Assembly (NCBI GenBank): GCA_902780135.1
Contig: CACZEK010000012.1
Span: forward strand, 1-64,000
DNA length: 64,000 nucleotides
Direction of reading: 5' to 3'
Source of the DNA: an uncultured bacterium
Lineage (GTDB): Bacteria > Verrucomicrobiota > Lentisphaeria > Victivallales > UBA1829
Shown here one piece after another: positions 2,690 to 45,714 of this stretch. The notes under the pieces were generated by a model. The model had not been told where the DNA came from. It did no database searches and saw only the letters and a list, made by a program, of their open reading frames with translations. The translations under genes and the position numbers were made by a program. The first letter of the stretch is position 1, and each line of letters begins with the position of its first letter.

Positions 2690-4069
2690 ATGACATACGA
2701 CTTACTGATCCTGGGCGGCGGCCCCGCGGGATTCCGCGCGGCGGAACGGGCGGGGCATTTCGGGCTGAGCGCCGCGGTTTTCGAAGGGAATGCGCTGGGC
2801 GGCGTCTGCCTCAACGAAGGGTGCATCCCGACCAAGACGATGCTGTATTCGGCGAAGCTGTACGACTATGCAAAGGGCGGCGCGGAGAAATACGGCGTGA
2901 CGGCAAAGGAAGCCTCGCTGGACCATGAATTCGTGGTGGCGCGCAAGGACAGGATCGTGAAGAAGCTCGTGGCGGGCGTGGAAATGCAGATGAAGAAGGC
3001 GCGCGCGGACGTCGTGCGAGCAAACGGCGCGCTGGCGGGCAGAAACGAGGCGGGCGAGTTCGTGATCGAGGCGGGCGGCGAGACGTTCGCCGGAAAAAAC
3101 GTGCTGATCGCGACCGGGTCCTCCGCCTCGGTCCCGCCGGTCCCCGGGCTGAAAGAGGCGCTCGCGGACGGATTCGCGGTCACGAACCGGGAAATCCTGT
3201 CGATGAGGGAGATCCCCTCGAAACTGGTCGTGATGGGCGCGGGCGCGATCGGGCTGGAAATGGCGTCGTACTTCAACTCCGCCGGGTCGGACGTGACGGT
3301 CGTCGAGATGCTCGACCGCATCGGCGGGCGCATCGACCGCGACATCGCCGCGCTGCTTCAGCGGAACTACACGGCGCGCGGAGTCAAATTCCTGACCGGG
3401 AGCCGAATCCAGTCGGTCGAGGCGGGACGCGTCCGCGGCGTGAAGCCGAACGGAGACGAGTTCGAACTGGAAGCCGACAAGATCCTGGTCGCCGCAGGAC
3501 GCAAGCCGAACACGCGGGGAATCGGGCTGGAATCGCTCGGGGTCGAGCTCGTCGCGAACGGCGGCATCCGCACGGACGAGAAAATGCGGACGAACGTGCC
3601 GGGCGTGTTCGCCGCCGGGGACGCGAACGGAATTTCCATGCTGGCGCACACGGCGTACCGCGAGGCGGAAGTGGCGGTGAACGTGATCCGCGGCGCCGAC
3701 GACACGATGCGCTACGACGCGATCCCGTCGGTGATCTACACGAACCCGGAAGCGGCGTCCGTCGGCGAGACCGAGGAGACCGCGGCGGAAAAAGGCATGA
3801 CCGTGAAGACGGTCAAGCTGCCGCTGCTCTTCAGCGGGCGGTACCAGGCGGAAAACGAGGGCGGAAACGGCATCATGAAGCTGGTGCTGGACGGGGAGAA
3901 GCGCATCATCCTCGGCGCGTGCATGCTCGGCAACCCGGCGTCGGAGATCATCCCCGCGATGGCAGTGGCGGTCGCGCGGCGCATGACCGCCGCCGACCTC
4001 GCGCAAACGGTGTTCCCGCATCCGACCGTGGCGGAAGTCCTGCGCGACGCCGCACTGACGGAGCTTTGA
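2690..4069 (+). CDS. lpdA: Dihydrolipoyl dehydrogenase (E3)
   Basis: This 459-residue flavoprotein reoxidises dihydrolipoyl groups with NAD+. The FAD-binding GGGPAGF (9-15) is followed by the redox-active disulfide in GGVCLNEGCIPTK (C40 and C45), the NAD-binding GAGAIGLE, the second FAD motif AAGDANG, and the C-terminal HPTVAE with the catalytic His444/Glu449 pair. All catalytic residues are present and the length is normal. It lies 49 bp after the E2-like gene and 16 bp before the fused E1 gene, so all three are likely co-transcribed as one 2-oxoacid dehydrogenase complex. Confidence 0.96.
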   Translation: MTYDLLILGGGPAGFRAAERAGHFGLSAAVFEGNALGGVCLNEGCIPTKTMLYSAKLYDYAKGGAEKYGVTAKEASLDHEFVVARKDRIVKKLVAGVEMQMKKARADVVRANGALAGRNEAGEFVIEAGGETFAGKNVLIATGSSASVPPVPGLKEALADGFAVTNREILSMREIPSKLVVMGAGAIGLEMASYFNSAGSDVTVVEMLDRIGGRIDRDIAALLQRNYTARGVKFLTGSRIQSVEAGRVRGVKPNGDEFELEADKILVAAGRKPNTRGIGLESLGVELVANGGIRTDEKMRTNVPGVFAAGDANGISMLAHTAYREAEVAVNVIRGADDTMRYDAIPSVIYTNPEAASVGETEETAAEKGMTVKTVKLPLLFSGRYQAENEGGNGIMKLVLDGEKRIILGACMLGNPASEIIPAMAVAVARRMTAADLAQTVFPHPTVAEVLRDAALTEL

Positions 4070-30749: not shown

Positions 30750-30778
30750 AATTTACACCGCGCAGGCGGTGTTTTCAA
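30750..30778 (-). promoter_or_regulatory. Promoter of the YcfL-hisI-murB/ddl operon, with a palindromic spacer
   Basis: On the minus strand: TTGAAA (30778-30773), a 17-bp spacer, TAAATT (30755-30750). The -35 box contains the gltA stop codon. The spacer is almost exactly a perfect inverted repeat, ACACCGC-loop-GCGGTGT (30755-30772). It could be an operator inside the promoter, a gltA terminator hairpin, or both. Confidence 0.6.
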
Positions 30779-32049
30779 GCCTCGATGTCACATTTTTTGC
30801 CGACATACACCTGGCGCGGGCGCACGATCTTGGTGTTCATGCCGATCATTTCCCGCCAGTGGGCGATCCAGCCGGGCAGGCGCGCCAGCGCGAACATCAC
30901 GGTGAACATCTTCTCCGGGATGCCGAGCGCGCGGTAGAGGATGCCGGAGTAGAAGTCGACGTTCGGGTAGAGGTTGCGGGAGACGAAATAGTCGTCGCTG
31001 AGGGCGGCCTTTTCGACCTCGAACGCCACCTGGAGCAGCGGGTCGGTCACGCGGCGCTTCGCGAAATAGCGTTCGCACTCCGCCTTGATGATCCGGGCGC
31101 GCGGGTCGAACGTCTTGTACACGCGGTGCCCGAAGCCCATGAGGCGTTCCGGGTTGTTGTGGTCCTTCACGCGGTCGAAGAACCTCTTCACGTTGCCGTC
31201 GTGCTCGATGCGGCGGAACATCTCGATGACTTCCTGGTTGGCGCCGCCGTGGAGCGGGCCGGACAGCGCGGACACGCCGGCGGAGATCGTGGCGTACAGG
31301 TTCACCTGCGCGCTGCCGATCGTGCGGACCGTCGTGGTCGAGCAGTTCTGCTCGTGGTCGGCGTGGAGGATCAGCAGGACGTTCAGCACGCGCACCGCCT
31401 CCTCGGAGATCTCGTACGGCATGACCGGGGAGTCGAACATCATGTTCAGGAAGTTCGCGCAGTAGGACAGGTCGTAGCGCGGATAGACGACCGGCTCGCC
31501 GATGCTCTTCTTGTACGCGAACGCCGCCATCGTGCGGACCGTGGAGATCAGGCGCGCCGTGGACGTGTCGATGTCCTCGCGGAACGACAGCAGGTCGACG
31601 TTCGGATAGAACACCGCCAGGGCGTTGATCATGGTCGACAGGATGTGCATGGGGTGCGCGCCGCGCGGATACAGGTCGAAGAAATGGCGCATGTCCTCAT
31701 GCAGCAGGGAGTTGACGTTCAGGAGCTTGGAGAACGCGCGCGCCTCCTCCGGGCTCGGCAGTTCGCCGTGGACCAGCAGGTACGCGACGTGGACGAACCG
31801 GAGCTTCTCGTCCGCCACAAGCTTCTCGATCGGAATCCCGCGGTAGCACAGGATGCCCTTTTCGCCGTTCACGTATGTGATGCTGCTGCGGCAGACCGCG
31901 GTGTTCATCAGGCCGGGGTCGAACGTGAGGCAGCCGGTCATCTTGCGGAGCGCTGTGATATCTATCGCTTTTTCGCCCTCGGTCCCGACAATAATCGGCA
32001 ACTTGATCTCCTGTCCGTTTACGGACAATGTCGCGAATTCACTCGCCAT
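30775..32049 (-). CDS. gltA: Citrate synthase (hexameric type)
   Basis: This enzyme of about 424 residues condenses acetyl-CoA and oxaloacetate. Key motifs are the ILHADHEQNCSTTTVR block with its catalytic His, GPLHGGANQEV, and GFGHRVYKTFDPRA with the catalytic His; the C-terminal Asp region is present too. The N-terminal extension with TFDPGLMNTAVCRSSITYVNGE is typical of Gram-negative NADH-sensitive enzymes. Two ATGs stand side by side. The second (32049) is 7 nt from AGGAGG and is preferred; the first (32052) is only 4 nt away. Confidence 0.96.
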   Translation of the reverse strand: MASEFATLSVNGQEIKLPIIVGTEGEKAIDITALRKMTGCLTFDPGLMNTAVCRSSITYVNGEKGILCYRGIPIEKLVADEKLRFVHVAYLLVHGELPSPEEARAFSKLLNVNSLLHEDMRHFFDLYPRGAHPMHILSTMINALAVFYPNVDLLSFREDIDTSTARLISTVRTMAAFAYKKSIGEPVVYPRYDLSYCANFLNMMFDSPVMPYEISEEAVRVLNVLLILHADHEQNCSTTTVRTIGSAQVNLYATISAGVSALSGPLHGGANQEVIEMFRRIEHDGNVKRFFDRVKDHNNPERLMGFGHRVYKTFDPRARIIKAECERYFAKRRVTDPLLQVAFEVEKAALSDDYFVSRNLYPNVDFYSGILYRALGIPEKMFTVMFALARLPGWIAHWREMIGMNTKIVRPRQVYVGKKCDIEA

Positions 32050-32125
32050 CATTCAGCCTCCTCTCTCGTATGGTTTCGGGCCGTTCGTGGTTGCAGTCGA
32101 TGTATGAAAATCATATAAACTGAAT

Positions 32126-32213: not shown

Positions 32214-32269
32214 TGAGACAAGTTTGCCGCATGGGCGGCTGGGACACAGTACTGAGACACTTTGTCTCA
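32214..32269. promoter_or_regulatory. TGAGACA dyad and half-site, candidate activator binding sites
   Basis: TGAGACA-CTT-TGTCTCA (32253-32269) is a perfect inverted repeat. A third TGAGACA stands at 32214-32220. The dyad centre is about 89 bp before the predicted sigma-54 start site of clpB, the usual range for an enhancer bound by a sigma-54 activator. Which activator is unknown. Confidence 0.55.
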
Positions 32270-32323
32270 TTCCGCTCCCATCACGCAAGCCGCAACCGCC
32301 TGATCCTGAAACGTTTTAAATCT

Positions 32324-32340
32324 TGGCACGCAAGTTGCTT
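32324..32340 (+). promoter_or_regulatory. clpB: Sigma-54-type (-24/-12) promoter of clpB
   Basis: TGGCACG-CAAG-TTGCTT matches the RpoN consensus TGGCACG-N4-TTGCW. The invariant GG (32325-32326) and GC (32337-32338) are separated by exactly 10 bp. Transcription would start near 32350, about 50 nt before the clpB ATG. No sigma-70-type pair as good is visible nearby. Confidence 0.75.
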
Positions 32341-32401
32341 GATTTCAGCCGGCATACGCAATATACAACAAACAACAACCGAAAACAAAGGAGTCGCGAT
32401 T

Positions 32402-34996
32402 ATGCTGGACATTCAGAAAATGACCGAAAAGACACGTGAAGCCCTCGCAGCCGCCGGCGCCGCCGCCCGCGAATACGGACACCAGGAGATCCGCCCGATC
32501 CACCTGCTCTCCGCATTGGCGAAACAGGACGGAGGCCTGCTGCCGTCGCTGCTGAAACGCCTCGGCACCCCGAACCAGCTACTATCGGACGCGGTGGAAG
32601 CCGAACTCGCCAAGCTGCCGAAAGTGACCGGAAACGCCGTCGACGTGTATCCGTCCCGCGATTTCAGCAACATCCTGGTGGAAGCCCGCGACCGCGCGGA
32701 AAAGATGAAGGACGAATACATCAGCGTGGAACACCTGCTGATGGCGATGATCGACAAGGACGCCGCATGCGCCGCCGCGCTCGAAAAGGCGGGGCTTACC
32801 GCCGACACCCTGCTGAAGACGCTGGTGGAAATCCGCGGCAACCAGCGCGTGACCAACGAGAACCCGGAAGCGTCGTTCGAGGCGCTTGAAAAATACGGAC
32901 GCGACCTCACGCAGGCCGCCCGCCAGAACAAGCTCGACCCGGTGATCGGCCGCGACGACGAAATCCGCCGCACCGTGCAGATCCTCGCCCGCCGCACCAA
33001 GAACAACCCGGTGCTGATCGGCGAGCCCGGCGTCGGCAAGACCGCCATCGTCGAGGGGCTGGCGGTCCGCATCGTGAAGGGCGACGTGCCGGAATCCCTG
33101 CGGAACAAGCGTCTGATCGCGCTCGACATGGGCGCGCTGATCGCCGGCGCGAAGTACCGGGGCGAATTCGAGGAACGCCTGAAAGCCGTCCTGAAGGAAG
33201 TCTCCGGCTCGAACGGCGACGTGATCCTGTTCATCGACGAGCTCCACACGGTCGTCGGCGCGGGCGCGTCCGAAGGCTCCATGGACGCGGGCAACCTGCT
33301 GAAGCCCGCCCTGGCGCGCGGCGAACTCCACTGCATCGGCGCGACCACGCTCAACGAATACCGCAAGTACATCGAAAAGGATCCCGCGCTCGAACGCCGG
33401 TTCCAGTCTGTCCTCGTGCCGCAGCCGTCCGTCGAGGACACGATCTCCATCCTGCGCGGCCTGAAGGAACGCTACGAACTGCATCACGGCGTGAAGATCC
33501 GCGACGGCGCGCTCGTGGCGGCCGCCGTGCTCTCCGACCAGTACATCGCCGACCGGTTCCTGCCGGACAAGGCGATCGACCTGATCGACGAGGCTGCGGC
33601 GAAGCTCCGCACCGAGATCGACTCCTGTCCGCAGGAGATCGACGAGGCGGAACGCAAGTCCATGCGCATGGAGATCGAGCTCTCCGCGCTCCGCAAGGAG
33701 AAGGACGAGGCGAGCGCGGCGCGGCGCGCCGAACTGGAGAAGGAACTCGCCGACATGAAGGAGAAGGCGAAGGCGATGCGCGCCTCCTGGAACGCCGAAA
33801 AGGACGCGATCGGGAAGCTGCAGACGCTGCGCGAAAGCCGCGACACGGCGAAAAGCGAGCTCGAGAAGGCGGAACGCGACAGCGACCTCCAGCGCGCCGG
33901 CGAACTCCGGTTCAGCATTATCCCCGGCATCGAAAAGCAGATCGCCGCGGCGGAAAAGGCGCTCGCGGGCGACGAGAACGGCAAGCGCATCCTGAAGGAG
34001 GAGGTAACCGAGGAGGACATCGCGGACATCGTGAGCCGCTGGACCAGCATCCCCGTCGCCAAGCTCGTCCGCAGCGAACGCGACAAGCTCCTGCACCTCT
34101 CCGAGCACCTGCACCTGCGCGTCGTGGGCCAGGACGAAGCGGTCGAGGCGGTCTCCGACGCCGTCCTGCGGTCACGCTCCGGCCTGAAGGACCCGAAACG
34201 CCCCATCGCGTCGTTCCTGTTCCTCGGGCCGACCGGCGTGGGCAAGACGGAACTCGCCCGCGCGCTGGCGGAAGACCTGTTCGACGACGAACGCGCGATC
34301 ATCCGCATCGACATGTCCGAATACATGGAGAAGTACAGCGTGTCGCGTCTGATCGGCGCGGCGCCCGGCTACGTCGGGTTCGAGGAAGGCGGCCAGCTGA
34401 CCGAGGCGGTCCGCCGCAGGCCCTACGCCGTGGTCCTCTTCGACGAGATCGAAAAGGCGCATCCGGACGTGTTCAACCTCTTCCTGCAGATCCTGGAGGA
34501 CGGCCAGCTGACGGATTCGCACGGACGCACCGTGAGCTTCAAAAACACGATCATCATCATGACGTCGAACCTGGGCAGCGACCTGCTGCTGGAGTGCGGC
34601 GGCGACGTGGAGAAGACGCGTCCCGAGATCGACAAGCTCCTGCACGCGCAGTTCCGCCCCGAGTTCCTGAACCGCATCGACGGCATCCTGCTCTTCAAGC
34701 CGCTGGAGCTCGACCAGATCGAATCCATCTTCGACATCCAGATCGGACTCCTCCGCGAACGCCTGAACAGGCAGGGCGTGGCGCTCGAGGTCAAGCCGAA
34801 GGCGCGCACGCTGCTCGCCAAACGCGGCTACGATCCGAGGTTCGGCGCGCGTCCGCTGAAGCGCGTGCTCGTGAACGACCTGGAGACGCCGCTCTCGCGG
34901 ATGCTGATCTCCGGCGAACTTCACGAAGGGATGACCCTGACCGTCGGCGTGAAAAAAGACGGCGAACTGGAGTTCACATGCGCGGACAAAGGTTGA
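32402..34996 (+). CDS. clpB: ClpB protein disaggregase
   Basis: This 864-residue AAA+ chaperone rescues aggregated proteins with the DnaK system. In order: the Clp-N double repeat (about 1-145), the first AAA domain with Walker A GEPGVGKT and DELHT, and a coiled-coil middle domain (about 410-530, Lys/Glu/Arg-rich), which marks ClpB rather than ClpA/C. The second AAA domain has GPTGVGKT and the C-terminal domain ends in [10 protein letters not shown]. The ATG at 32402 has AAAGGAG 8 nt upstream and gives the standard ClpB N-terminus. The upstream extension is rejected. The stop codon is embedded in the grpE -35 box. Confidence 0.96.
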
Positions 34997-35053: not shown

Positions 35054-35740
35054 ATGCACAACAAAAAACGCGGCATCGACCATGCCGAAAAAATAGAAGC
35101 CGACGCGGCCGCCGAGGCGCGCGAAATGCCCACCATGGAGCCGAAAGGCGAGGCGGCGTTCGACGAGGCGACGCAGGCCGCCGCGTCCGCGATGGCGGAC
35201 GCGAATTTCGAATACGAGGCGGAATGCGCCAAGATCGAAAAGCTGGAGGCGAAGCTCAAGGAGACCGAGGAAAAGCTGAAAGAGACGGAGCGTCTCCGCC
35301 TCCTCGCCCTCGCCGAGATGGACAACCAGCGGAAACGCCTGGCGAAGGAGATGGAGAACGTGCGGTACAACACCACGCAGGACACCATCTTCCCGTTCCT
35401 CCAGGTCTTCGACCATTTCACCATGGCGGTGGCCGCCGCCGGGAAGTCCAGCTCCCTCGAATCCCTGATCCAGGGCATGGACATCATCCAGAAGGAATTC
35501 GACAAGGCGTTTGCGGACCTCGACGTGACCGTGATCGACGCGACCGGAAAGCCGTTCGACCCCGCCCTGCACGAGGCGGTCGCCGAAGAGCCCTCCGACA
35601 CCGTGCCGAACGGCACCGTGATCCGCCAGTGGAGCCGCGGCTACCGGTGCGGCTCGCGCCTGCTGAAGCCCGCCATGGTCGTGGTCAGTTCCGGCCCGGC
35701 TGCGCCCGCGGAAAACGCGGATCAGAAGGACGGAGAATAA
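35054..35740 (+). CDS. grpE: Nucleotide exchange factor GrpE
   Basis: This 228-residue cochaperone releases ADP from DnaK. It has an acidic, disordered N-terminus, a long coiled coil (about 50-95, KIEKLEAKLKETEEKLKETERLRLLALAEMDN) given here only as a span, and the beta-wing signature near the end (FDPALHEAVAEEPSDTVPNGTVI, RGYRCGSRLLKPAMVVV). No dnaK is present in the window. GGAG lies before the ATG. It is followed by dnaJ after 81 bp that can fold into a strong hairpin. Confidence 0.93.
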   Translation: MHNKKRGIDHAEKIEADAAAEAREMPTMEPKGEAAFDEATQAAASAMADANFEYEAECAKIEKLEAKLKETEEKLKETERLRLLALAEMDNQRKRLAKEMENVRYNTTQDTIFPFLQVFDHFTMAVAAAGKSSSLESLIQGMDIIQKEFDKAFADLDVTVIDATGKPFDPALHEAVAEEPSDTVPNGTVIRQWSRGYRCGSRLLKPAMVVVSSGPAAPAENADQKDGE

Positions 35741-35821: not shown

Positions 35822-37024
35822 ATGGCGAAGGATTATTACGACATACTGGGAATCGCGAAAACGGCGTCGGCGGACGAGATCAAGAGGGCGTACCGCAAGC
35901 TCGCCGTCAAATACCACCCGGACAAGAATCCCGGGGACAAGGCCGCGGAGGAGAAGTTCAAGGAAGTCTCCCGCGCCTACGAAGTCCTCAGCGACGACAA
36001 GAAACGCAAGCAGTACGACCAGTTCGGGCCCGACGTCTTCGAACGGACCGGCGGCCAGGGCTACGGCCCCGGCGCGGGCGGATTCGGCGGCGGCCCGGGC
36101 GGGTTCTCCTCGGCCAATTTCAATTTCTCCGGCTTCTCCGATCCGCGCGACATCTTCAGCCAGGTGTTCGGCGACGGCGGATTCTCGTTCGACGACCTGC
36201 TCGGCGGCATGAGAAACGGCCGCGGCGCGCGGCGGCGGTCCTCGTCCGGCGTACGCAAGGGCGGCGACCTGAACTGCCGCGTGGAGATCGACCTCGAGGA
36301 CGCCATCCTCGGCGCGGACAAGAAGATCCGCCTCGCCAAGGACGAGATCTGCACGGCGTGCGGCGGGTCCGGCGCGGAGCCCGGCTCCACGCGCAAATCC
36401 TGCCCGTCCTGCGGCGGCTCCGGCTTCATCGTCTCCGGCCAGGGGTTCTTCCAGTCGCAGGAACCGTGCCCCGCCTGCCACGGCACCGGCAGCGTGATCC
36501 TGCATCCGTGCAAACGCTGCGGCGGGCGCGGCGTCATGCGCGTGGACAAGGAGCTTCAGATCCACATCCCGCCCGGAGTCGACGAAGGCTCCAAGCTGCG
36601 CGTGTCCGGCCAGGGCGAACCCGGAACGGGCGGCGGCCCGGCGGGCAATCTGTACGTCATCATCGGGCTGCGCCCGCATCCCGTCTTCGAACGCAAGGGG
36701 CAGGACCTGATCTGCGAGCTGCCGATCACGCTCGAATGCGCGATCCAGGGCGGCGTCGTGGACGTGCCCACCGTCTCCGGACGCACCCGCATGAAGATCG
36801 CGCCCGGCACGCAGAACGGCACGATGCTGCGCCTGCGCGGAAAAGGCGTGCCCGCGCTGAAGGGCGGCGCACGGGGCGACCAGCTCGTCCGCATCTTCGT
36901 GGAGATCCCGTCCGGCATGACCGCCGAACAGCAGAAGGCGATCGCTTCGCTCGGGCTCTCCGGCGCGAACTACCCGAAACAGGCGGAATTCCGCGCGAAA
37001 GCCGCAAAATTCCTGCACACATAA
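35822..37024 (+). CDS. dnaJ: Chaperone DnaJ
   Basis: This 400-residue type I Hsp40 stimulates the ATPase of DnaK. The J-domain (1-70) contains HPD in [11 protein letters not shown]. The Gly/Phe-rich linker (about 75-135) is long. Four zinc-binding CxxCxGxG repeats follow ([32 protein letters not shown]), then the substrate-binding C-terminal domains. All elements are intact. GAGGG lies ahead of the ATG. smpB follows after 16 bp. Confidence 0.96.
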
Positions 37025-37040
37025 ACCGACCGGACACACT

Positions 37041-37532
37041 ATGGCCGCGGCAAAAAACAAAGACTCGAAAAACAGCAGCGATCCCGTCATCGCCCGCAAC
37101 CGCAAGGCGTTCCACGACTACGACATCATCGAAACCTGCGAGGCGGGGATCGTGCTCGTTGGGACCGAGGTCAAGAGCTGCCGCGGCCACAGCGTCCAGC
37201 TGCAGGACTGTTTCGCGCGCATCGAGAACGGCGAACTGCTCGCCTACGGCATCCACATCTCGCTGTACGCGTTCGGCAACCGGTTCAACCACGAGGCGAA
37301 ACGCCCCCGCAAGCTCCTGATGCACAAAAAGGAGATCCTGCGCCTCGCCAACAAGGTCAAGGAAAAGGGATACGCCCTCATCCCCCTGAAAATGTACCTG
37401 AAGGGCATGCACGTGAAGGTCGAGGTCGGCCTCGCGCGCGGCAAGACGTTCGGCGACAAACGCGAGACGCTCCGCCGCAAGCAGGACGACATGGACATGC
37501 GGCGCGCCATCGCCGCCAGACGCCGGGGCTGA
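37041..37532 (+). CDS. smpB: SsrA-binding protein SmpB
   Basis: This 163-residue partner of tmRNA rescues stalled ribosomes. It has the full oligonucleotide-binding fold: NRKAFHDYDI, GTEVKSCR, GNRFNHEAKRPRKLLMHKKEI and YALIPLKMYLKG. The basic C-terminal tail (KRETLRRKQDDMDMRRAIAARRRG, shown as a span) reaches the decoding centre. The tmRNA gene itself was not found nearby. It completes the proteostasis block with clpB, grpE and dnaJ and is followed by a small terminator. Confidence 0.95.
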   Translation: MAAAKNKDSKNSSDPVIARNRKAFHDYDIIETCEAGIVLVGTEVKSCRGHSVQLQDCFARIENGELLAYGIHISLYAFGNRFNHEAKRPRKLLMHKKEILRLANKVKEKGYALIPLKMYLKGMHVKVEVGLARGKTFGDKRETLRRKQDDMDMRRAIAARRRG

Positions 37533-45641: not shown

Positions 45642-45714
45642 TGAGTCGGCAGGGACTCGAACCCTGGACCACCGCCTTAAAAGGGCGATGCTCTACCGAC
45701 TGAGCTACCGACCC
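45642..45714 (-). tRNA. tRNA-Lys (anticodon UUU)
   Basis: The 73-nt minus-strand cloverleaf is complete. The acceptor pairs GGGTCGG with CCGACTC, and the D-stem is GCTC/GAGC. The anticodon loop CTTTTAA gives UUU with A37, and the T-arm is CAGGG-TTCGAGT-CCCTG. CCA is not encoded; the 3' end is followed by CTTTTTTT, a likely terminator. A37 preceded by U36 marks it as a t6A/ms2t6A substrate, matching TsaB and MtaB elsewhere in the window. Confidence 0.95.

Follow-up and report, generated by a model that had tools for sequence, protein, structure and literature searches.

The clpB operon of this uncultured Victivallales bacterium carries a complete sigma-54 (-24/-12) promoter element and, upstream of it, a palindromic dyad that recurs at other chaperone operons and at the operon of a two-component pair with an NtrC-type response regulator. 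From the observed sequences, gene content, conservation and co-occurrence, we propose that this pair and sigma-54 very probably drive the clpB operon, dnaK and htpG, and that the circuit is limited by a copy of the dyad at the pair's own operon. Heat-shock control is usually taught as the work of sigma-32, HrcA/CIRCE, CtsR or HspR. The parts of the proposed circuit are familiar ones; the novelty lies in their unusual and apparently phylum-wide assignment to core heat-shock genes.

A sigma-54-type promoter and an upstream dyad precede clpB

We analysed a window of 64,000 nt of contig C12, by which we mean the whole stretch of DNA presented, together with the rest of its genome, covered by pattern searches and by scans of 570–585 kb of sequence, and the genomes of relatives. 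The clpB gene (32402–34996, plus strand) encodes a protein of 864 aa with Clp_N, AAA, AAA_2 and ClpB_D2-small domains; its ATG start at 32402 follows the ribosome site AAAGGAG (32387–32393). On the same strand lie grpE (35054–35740; PF01025), dnaJ (35822–37024; PF00226, PF01556 and PF00684) and smpB (37041–37532; PF01668). Judging by the gene spacing, clpB, grpE, dnaJ and smpB probably form one operon, with clpB as its first gene and smpB as its last. A divergent citrate synthase gene (30775–32052, minus strand; PF00285) bounds the 349-bp regulatory region in front of clpB. The sole Rfam match in the window is a tRNA gene at 45642–45714 on the minus strand.

An earlier note on this DNA had proposed that clpB is driven by a sigma-54-type promoter whose GG and GC lie 10 bp apart, with a perfect inverted repeat about 89 bp before the start and an additional TGAGACA at 32214. 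All of these strings are present. The sequence TTGGCACGCAAGTTGCTTG occupies 32323–32341, with its GG at 32325–32326 and its GC at 32337–32338, a spacing of exactly 10 nt, and the promoter element itself (32323–32339, plus strand; TTGGCACG-CAAG-TTGCT) fits the TGGCAYR-N4-TTGCW consensus completely, at 12 of 12 positions within 32324–32339. The predicted transcription start is at about 32350. By pattern search, the exact string TGGCACGNNNNTTGCW has four copies in the genome, and the three outside clpB are found upstream of glutamate synthase, a glnK and a secretin-like gene.

The dyad TGAGACA-CTT-TGTCTCA (TGAGACACTTTGTCTCA; 32253–32269) is a putative activator site, centred at 32261, about 89 bp upstream of the predicted start, and located 71 bp upstream of the -24 box. 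It is matched once in the window versus zero times in 100 dinucleotide shuffles, and it is the sole perfect copy in the 2.84-Mb genome. Two auxiliary half-sites are found on the plus strand, TGAGACA at 32214–32220 and TGGGACA at 32240–32246. As a single heptamer TGAGACA is not rare (three in the window versus 4.3 expected), but in the genus alignment the block containing it is kept and TGGGACA is largely kept, though much of the intergenic sequence has diverged. The half-site at 32214–32220 probably contributes to a weaker second site for the activator.

These observations bear on a different view of the same region, according to which clpB is transcribed mainly from a sigma-70 or sigma-32 promoter and the -24/-12 element is accessory, for example in a tandem arrangement. 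Such tandem promoters, recognized by sigma-66 and sigma-54, are known at hrcA-grpE-dnaK of Chlamydia (PMC7482065, PMC8762339), and our pattern scan for sigma-70-type promoters covered one promoter type. That scan returned no site between 32000 and 32460, so that the 349-bp region between the citrate synthase gene and clpB is without a sigma-70-type site, and the CIRCE element, searched as TTAGCACTC-N9-GAGTGCTAA, has no copy at up to three mismatches in the whole genome. A sigma-32-type conserved block is likewise not seen in the genus alignment of the clpB upstream region, where conservation falls on the half-sites, the dyad, the -24/-12 box, the nucleotides that directly follow this box and the ribosome site. 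We consider it unlikely that clpB is expressed mainly from another promoter.

The promoter and dyad are conserved upstream of clpB

The string TGGCACG...TTGCT could also resemble a sigma-54 promoter by chance and the palindrome could be functionless; near-matches to the -24/-12 pattern do occur elsewhere (11 at no more than one mismatch versus 29 in reversed controls). The conservation of the element was scored upstream of clpB in relatives. A -24/-12 box was counted when GG and GC were fixed and at least 10 of 12 consensus positions matched, within 300 bp upstream of clpB, and a generalized dyad, TGNGNCA-N3-TGNCNCA, was counted when at least 9 of 10 positions matched within 400 bp upstream.

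Within the family, the box, the dyad and both together precede clpB in 29 of 29 members. Most members of the order's other families keep the box (32/40), with the dyad in 20 and both in 19. The other orders of the class have the box in 11/14, the dyad in 12/14 and both in 11/14, and for the other classes of the phylum the counts are 16, 11 and 10 out of 26. An outgroup of 75 genomes, taken from a ClpB search and composed mostly of other phyla with a few Verrucomicrobia, contains three boxes, one dyad and no instance of both, while the reversed-sequence controls yield zero to one in the phylum sets and three boxes and two dyads in the outgroup. ClpB identity in the sets of relatives reaches down to about 60%; the conservation of box and dyad therefore reflects more than recency. 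A lack of conservation in relatives, which the earlier note would have counted against its proposal, is thus the opposite of what is seen: the element stands upstream of clpB far above controls. Measured from the -24 box, the dyad of relatives lies 29–158 bp upstream (median 62–86), and two positions at the centre of the dyad, which belong neither to the search pattern nor to the half-sites, are over 90% A/T.

The conservation tests rule out the chance reading. Box and dyad are retained over genera, families and orders, as opposed to a box in 3 of 75 outgroup genomes, and they recur at dnaK, htpG and hsp20, which leaves the coincidence of a promoter-like string with an idle palindrome a negligible probability.

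A recognizable box right before clpB is absent in 8 of the 40 order members. In three genomes of the order (G094, G107 and G110) an hsp20 gene upstream of clpB bears the box, accompanied by the dyad in two of them; others, such as G051, G063 and G103, show none. An exact TGGCACGCCCGTTGCT located 68 bp before the clpB start of a Rhizobium sp. (L165) comes without a dyad and was set aside as probably due to chance.

The same elements precede other chaperone operons

The earlier note had suggested a genome scan for dyads close to further -24/-12 promoters. The dyad does recur at such promoters, before htpG and dnaK. Exact TGNGNCA-N3-TGNCNCA dyads number three in the genome versus zero in the reversed control: one before clpB, one before an operon of a zinc-ribbon gene and htpG, and one in an unrelated place. 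The htpG operon has a sigma-54 box, TTTGGCACAAAGTATGCTTA, 83 bp downstream of its dyad. At dnaK, the sigma-54 box CTTGGCATCATGTATGCTTA is accompanied by a 9/10 dyad, CGCGACATTTTGGCACA, 113 bp upstream of the box. Some 0.4 kb beyond dnaK come groES and groEL; with an ORF of 68 aa and a possible weak hairpin in between, groESL may or may not share the dnaK promoter. The 68-aa ORF (L290, reverse strand, approximately 3449–3653) encodes a hydrophobic C-terminus. The small zinc-ribbon gene (PF09723) sits between the dyad and sigma-54 promoter and htpG (L005 / L331; G000 C9:45623), and genome G014 has a similar gene behind the same type of promoter.

A loose joint scan for box plus dyad in 570 kb of the genome's own DNA gave three matches, exactly the chaperone operons, versus two in reversed sequence. 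Taken by itself, this genome thus gives the joint criterion no significance; we place the weight on gene identity, all three matches being operons for chaperones, and on conservation. Three dyad-like sites, at C1:201151 (TGAAACACTTTGTTTCA), C5:192250 and C7:15062, were dropped, since neither a chaperone gene nor a convincing sigma-54 box lies close by.

Nine relatives together contain 33 exact dyads with an A/T centre, compared to four in the control. These sites include clpB and the kinase gene described below, dnaK (G018, G036, G110, G177 and G286), htpG or the zinc-ribbon gene (G014, G018 and G021) and hsp20 (G021), and the paired box and dyad precede hsp20, htpG and dnaK in relatives. The hsp20 promoters of G021 (C27; L272) and G094 (L284) have two full dyads spaced 35–36 bp apart, or about 3.5 helical turns. 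The earlier proposal of a sigma-54 promoter and activator-binding dyad at clpB is supported, and the elements appear to mark a wider circuit than it envisaged, a regulon of several chaperone operons.

An NtrC-type two-component pair is the candidate activator

Sigma-54 promoters require an AAA+ activator. The gene for sigma-54 itself, whose absence the earlier note had named as evidence against the promoter, is present: rpoN is identified by one PF04552 match (E 1.2e-60) at C6:106845–107318. Only two strong Sigma54_activat proteins are found in the genome, which is 94% complete, and a third activator could be absent from the assembly.

The first activator, on contig C8, is a GAF-AAA+-HTH protein (domains read by eye) encoded between gltBD and glnK-amtB. 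The dyad is absent where sigma-54 promoters precede gltB, two glnK, a glnA-like and a secretin-like gene. These genes outline a second sigma-54 regulon in the same genome, with near-identical TGGCACGGGATTTGCT boxes before gltB, the two glnK(-amtB), the glnA-like and the secretin-like genes (L056, G000 C8:38000–56000; L055:5731; L057:6694; L058:4924).

The second activator is an NtrC-type response regulator (C24:12297–13664, minus strand) with a PF00072 receiver, PF00158 and a PF02954 domain (HTH_8, Fis-type), and with GAFTGA at residue 222. It is preceded by the gene of a PAS-HisKA-HATPase_c kinase of 396 aa, whose stop overlaps the regulator start. No membrane span is found in this kinase, which by its sequence is a soluble protein.

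An activator gene with its own copy of the dyad, which the earlier note had thought worth seeking, is found at this operon. The next-best dyad of the genome, TGAGACAAAACGTCTCA, is the only copy with one mismatch and is located just upstream of the kinase gene, directly 3′ of a sigma-70-type promoter (TTGACT-N16-TATATT). Because the dyad abuts the -10 box, the site is suited to autorepression, and its position appears to fit an activator that represses its own operon; autoregulation is frequent among NtrC-type regulators. The layout of promoter plus dyad is shared by the genus and by several further genera, with TATAGT/TATAGTG-like variants. Dyads are also found near the kinase gene in members of the order or class (G036, G110, G085, G050, G081, G037, G066 and G199); before this gene several members of the family have a weak dyad or none, and in over half of the wider sample none was found. 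In G288, a member of another class, clpB is directly followed by the gene of a related NtrC-type regulator, and a 9/10 dyad, TGTGTCAAAAAGGCGCA, lies between the two (L270:1608–4921).

At an otherwise genuine sigma-54 promoter, the dyad could instead be bound by another protein, such as a repressor or a third activator not represented in the assembly, which could control the two-component pair as well. A dyad in the -10/start region of the kinase operon would fit any repressor, the genome is incomplete to the extent given above, and binding of the dyad by the C24 regulator is predicted. The position of the dyad in relatives, however, at 29–158 bp upstream of the -24 box, is the placement of an enhancer rather than of a repressor site; the only other activator found is the nitrogen-type GAF protein, whose targets have no dyad; and autoregulation would be nothing unusual for an NtrC-type protein. 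We regard control by another protein as quite improbable, and favour the C24 two-component pair.

According to the model with this pair as activator, sigma-54 RNA polymerase would transcribe clpB-grpE-dnaJ-smpB from the -24/-12 promoter at 32323–32339 in the cell. The C24 regulator, once phosphorylated in partnership with the soluble PAS histidine kinase, would bind the dyad at 32253–32269, aided by the half-sites, and the bound regulator would loop to the promoter, where its ATP hydrolysis would lead to the open complex. The same pair would govern the dnaK and zinc-ribbon-htpG operons and, in relatives, hsp20, dnaK or htpG. Through the dyad next to the -10 box of the sigma-70-type promoter that serves its operon, the regulator would also curb its own synthesis. 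Common control of clpB, dnaK, htpG and hsp20 would point to a heat-shock or proteostasis regulon, for which the inducing signal would presumably be protein damage or heat.

Discussion

On balance, we think it somewhat more likely than not that a dedicated two-component pair and sigma-54 run the main heat-shock response (dnaK, clpB-grpE-dnaJ, htpG and hsp20) in much of Verrucomicrobiota, where they would take the place of a heat-shock sigma factor or HrcA-type repressor, and that this represents an old and distinct way of sensing protein damage through a soluble PAS kinase. If so, a phylum-wide chaperone regulon dependent on ATP-driven activation of sigma-54 would behave differently from the usual systems, combining the absence of basal leak with a kinase-sensed signal and a cooperative switch, and one would have to ask to what the soluble kinase responds. 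The analysis names a single kinase, a single activator, a single enhancer motif and a small set of targets, so that heat-shock control in Verrucomicrobiota can now be tested directly.

Our search of the open-access literature found no earlier report specifically of sigma-54 heat-shock control in Verrucomicrobia or Lentisphaerae. A 2025 position-matrix survey, in the portion of the text available, describes chaperone COGs (GroEL, IbpA, GrpE, DnaJ, DnaK and COG0542) as enriched behind sigma-54-like promoters in Planctomycetia and Bacteroidota (PMC12316311); in that portion Verrucomicrobiota are not reported, and no activator or enhancer is named for these predictions. The effects of RpoN on chaperones in Geobacter were judged possibly indirect (PMC2725144), and the sigma-54 regulome of Desulfovibrio does not name clpB (PMC4641369).

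The closest parallel within the superphylum is the sigma-54 / AtoS-AtoC (CtcB-CtcC) regulon of Chlamydia trachomatis, which also places a sigma-54 promoter at chaperone genes: one lies upstream of hrcA-grpE-dnaK, and atoC goes up on heat shock (PMC8762339, PMC7482065). Unlike here, the chlamydial promoter stands in tandem with a sigma-66 promoter that HrcA/CIRCE controls. Roughly half of the chlamydial sigma-54 targets are associated with type III secretion, and the available parts of PMC8762339 and PMC7482065 do not mention clpB.

Compared with classical control by sigma-32 or HrcA/CIRCE, the target genes are the same, whereas here the control would be positive and enhancer-driven, in a genome without CIRCE. 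In Myxococcus, HsfA is NtrC-like, and the activation of lonD is not known to be sigma-54-dependent. The HsfB-HsfA histidine kinase and response regulator of Myxococcus xanthus activate this heat-shock gene (Ueki and Inouye 2002, as cited in a passage of PMC9548883). The likeness is a two-component pair that activates a heat-shock gene; the difference is that the target is a protease gene and the phylum is unrelated.

In its parts, the proposed system is of the NtrBC, ZraSR and AtoSC class, with a PAS kinase beside a REC-AAA+(GAFTGA)-Fis HTH regulator. Like the NtrBC class, it has putative palindromic enhancers upstream of -24/-12 promoters and a putative autoregulatory site at the sigma-70-type promoter of its operon. 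In contrast to NtrBC, ZraSR and AtoSC, whose targets serve nitrogen, metals or acetoacetate, its predicted targets are core chaperones, reached through an enhancer motif of its own.
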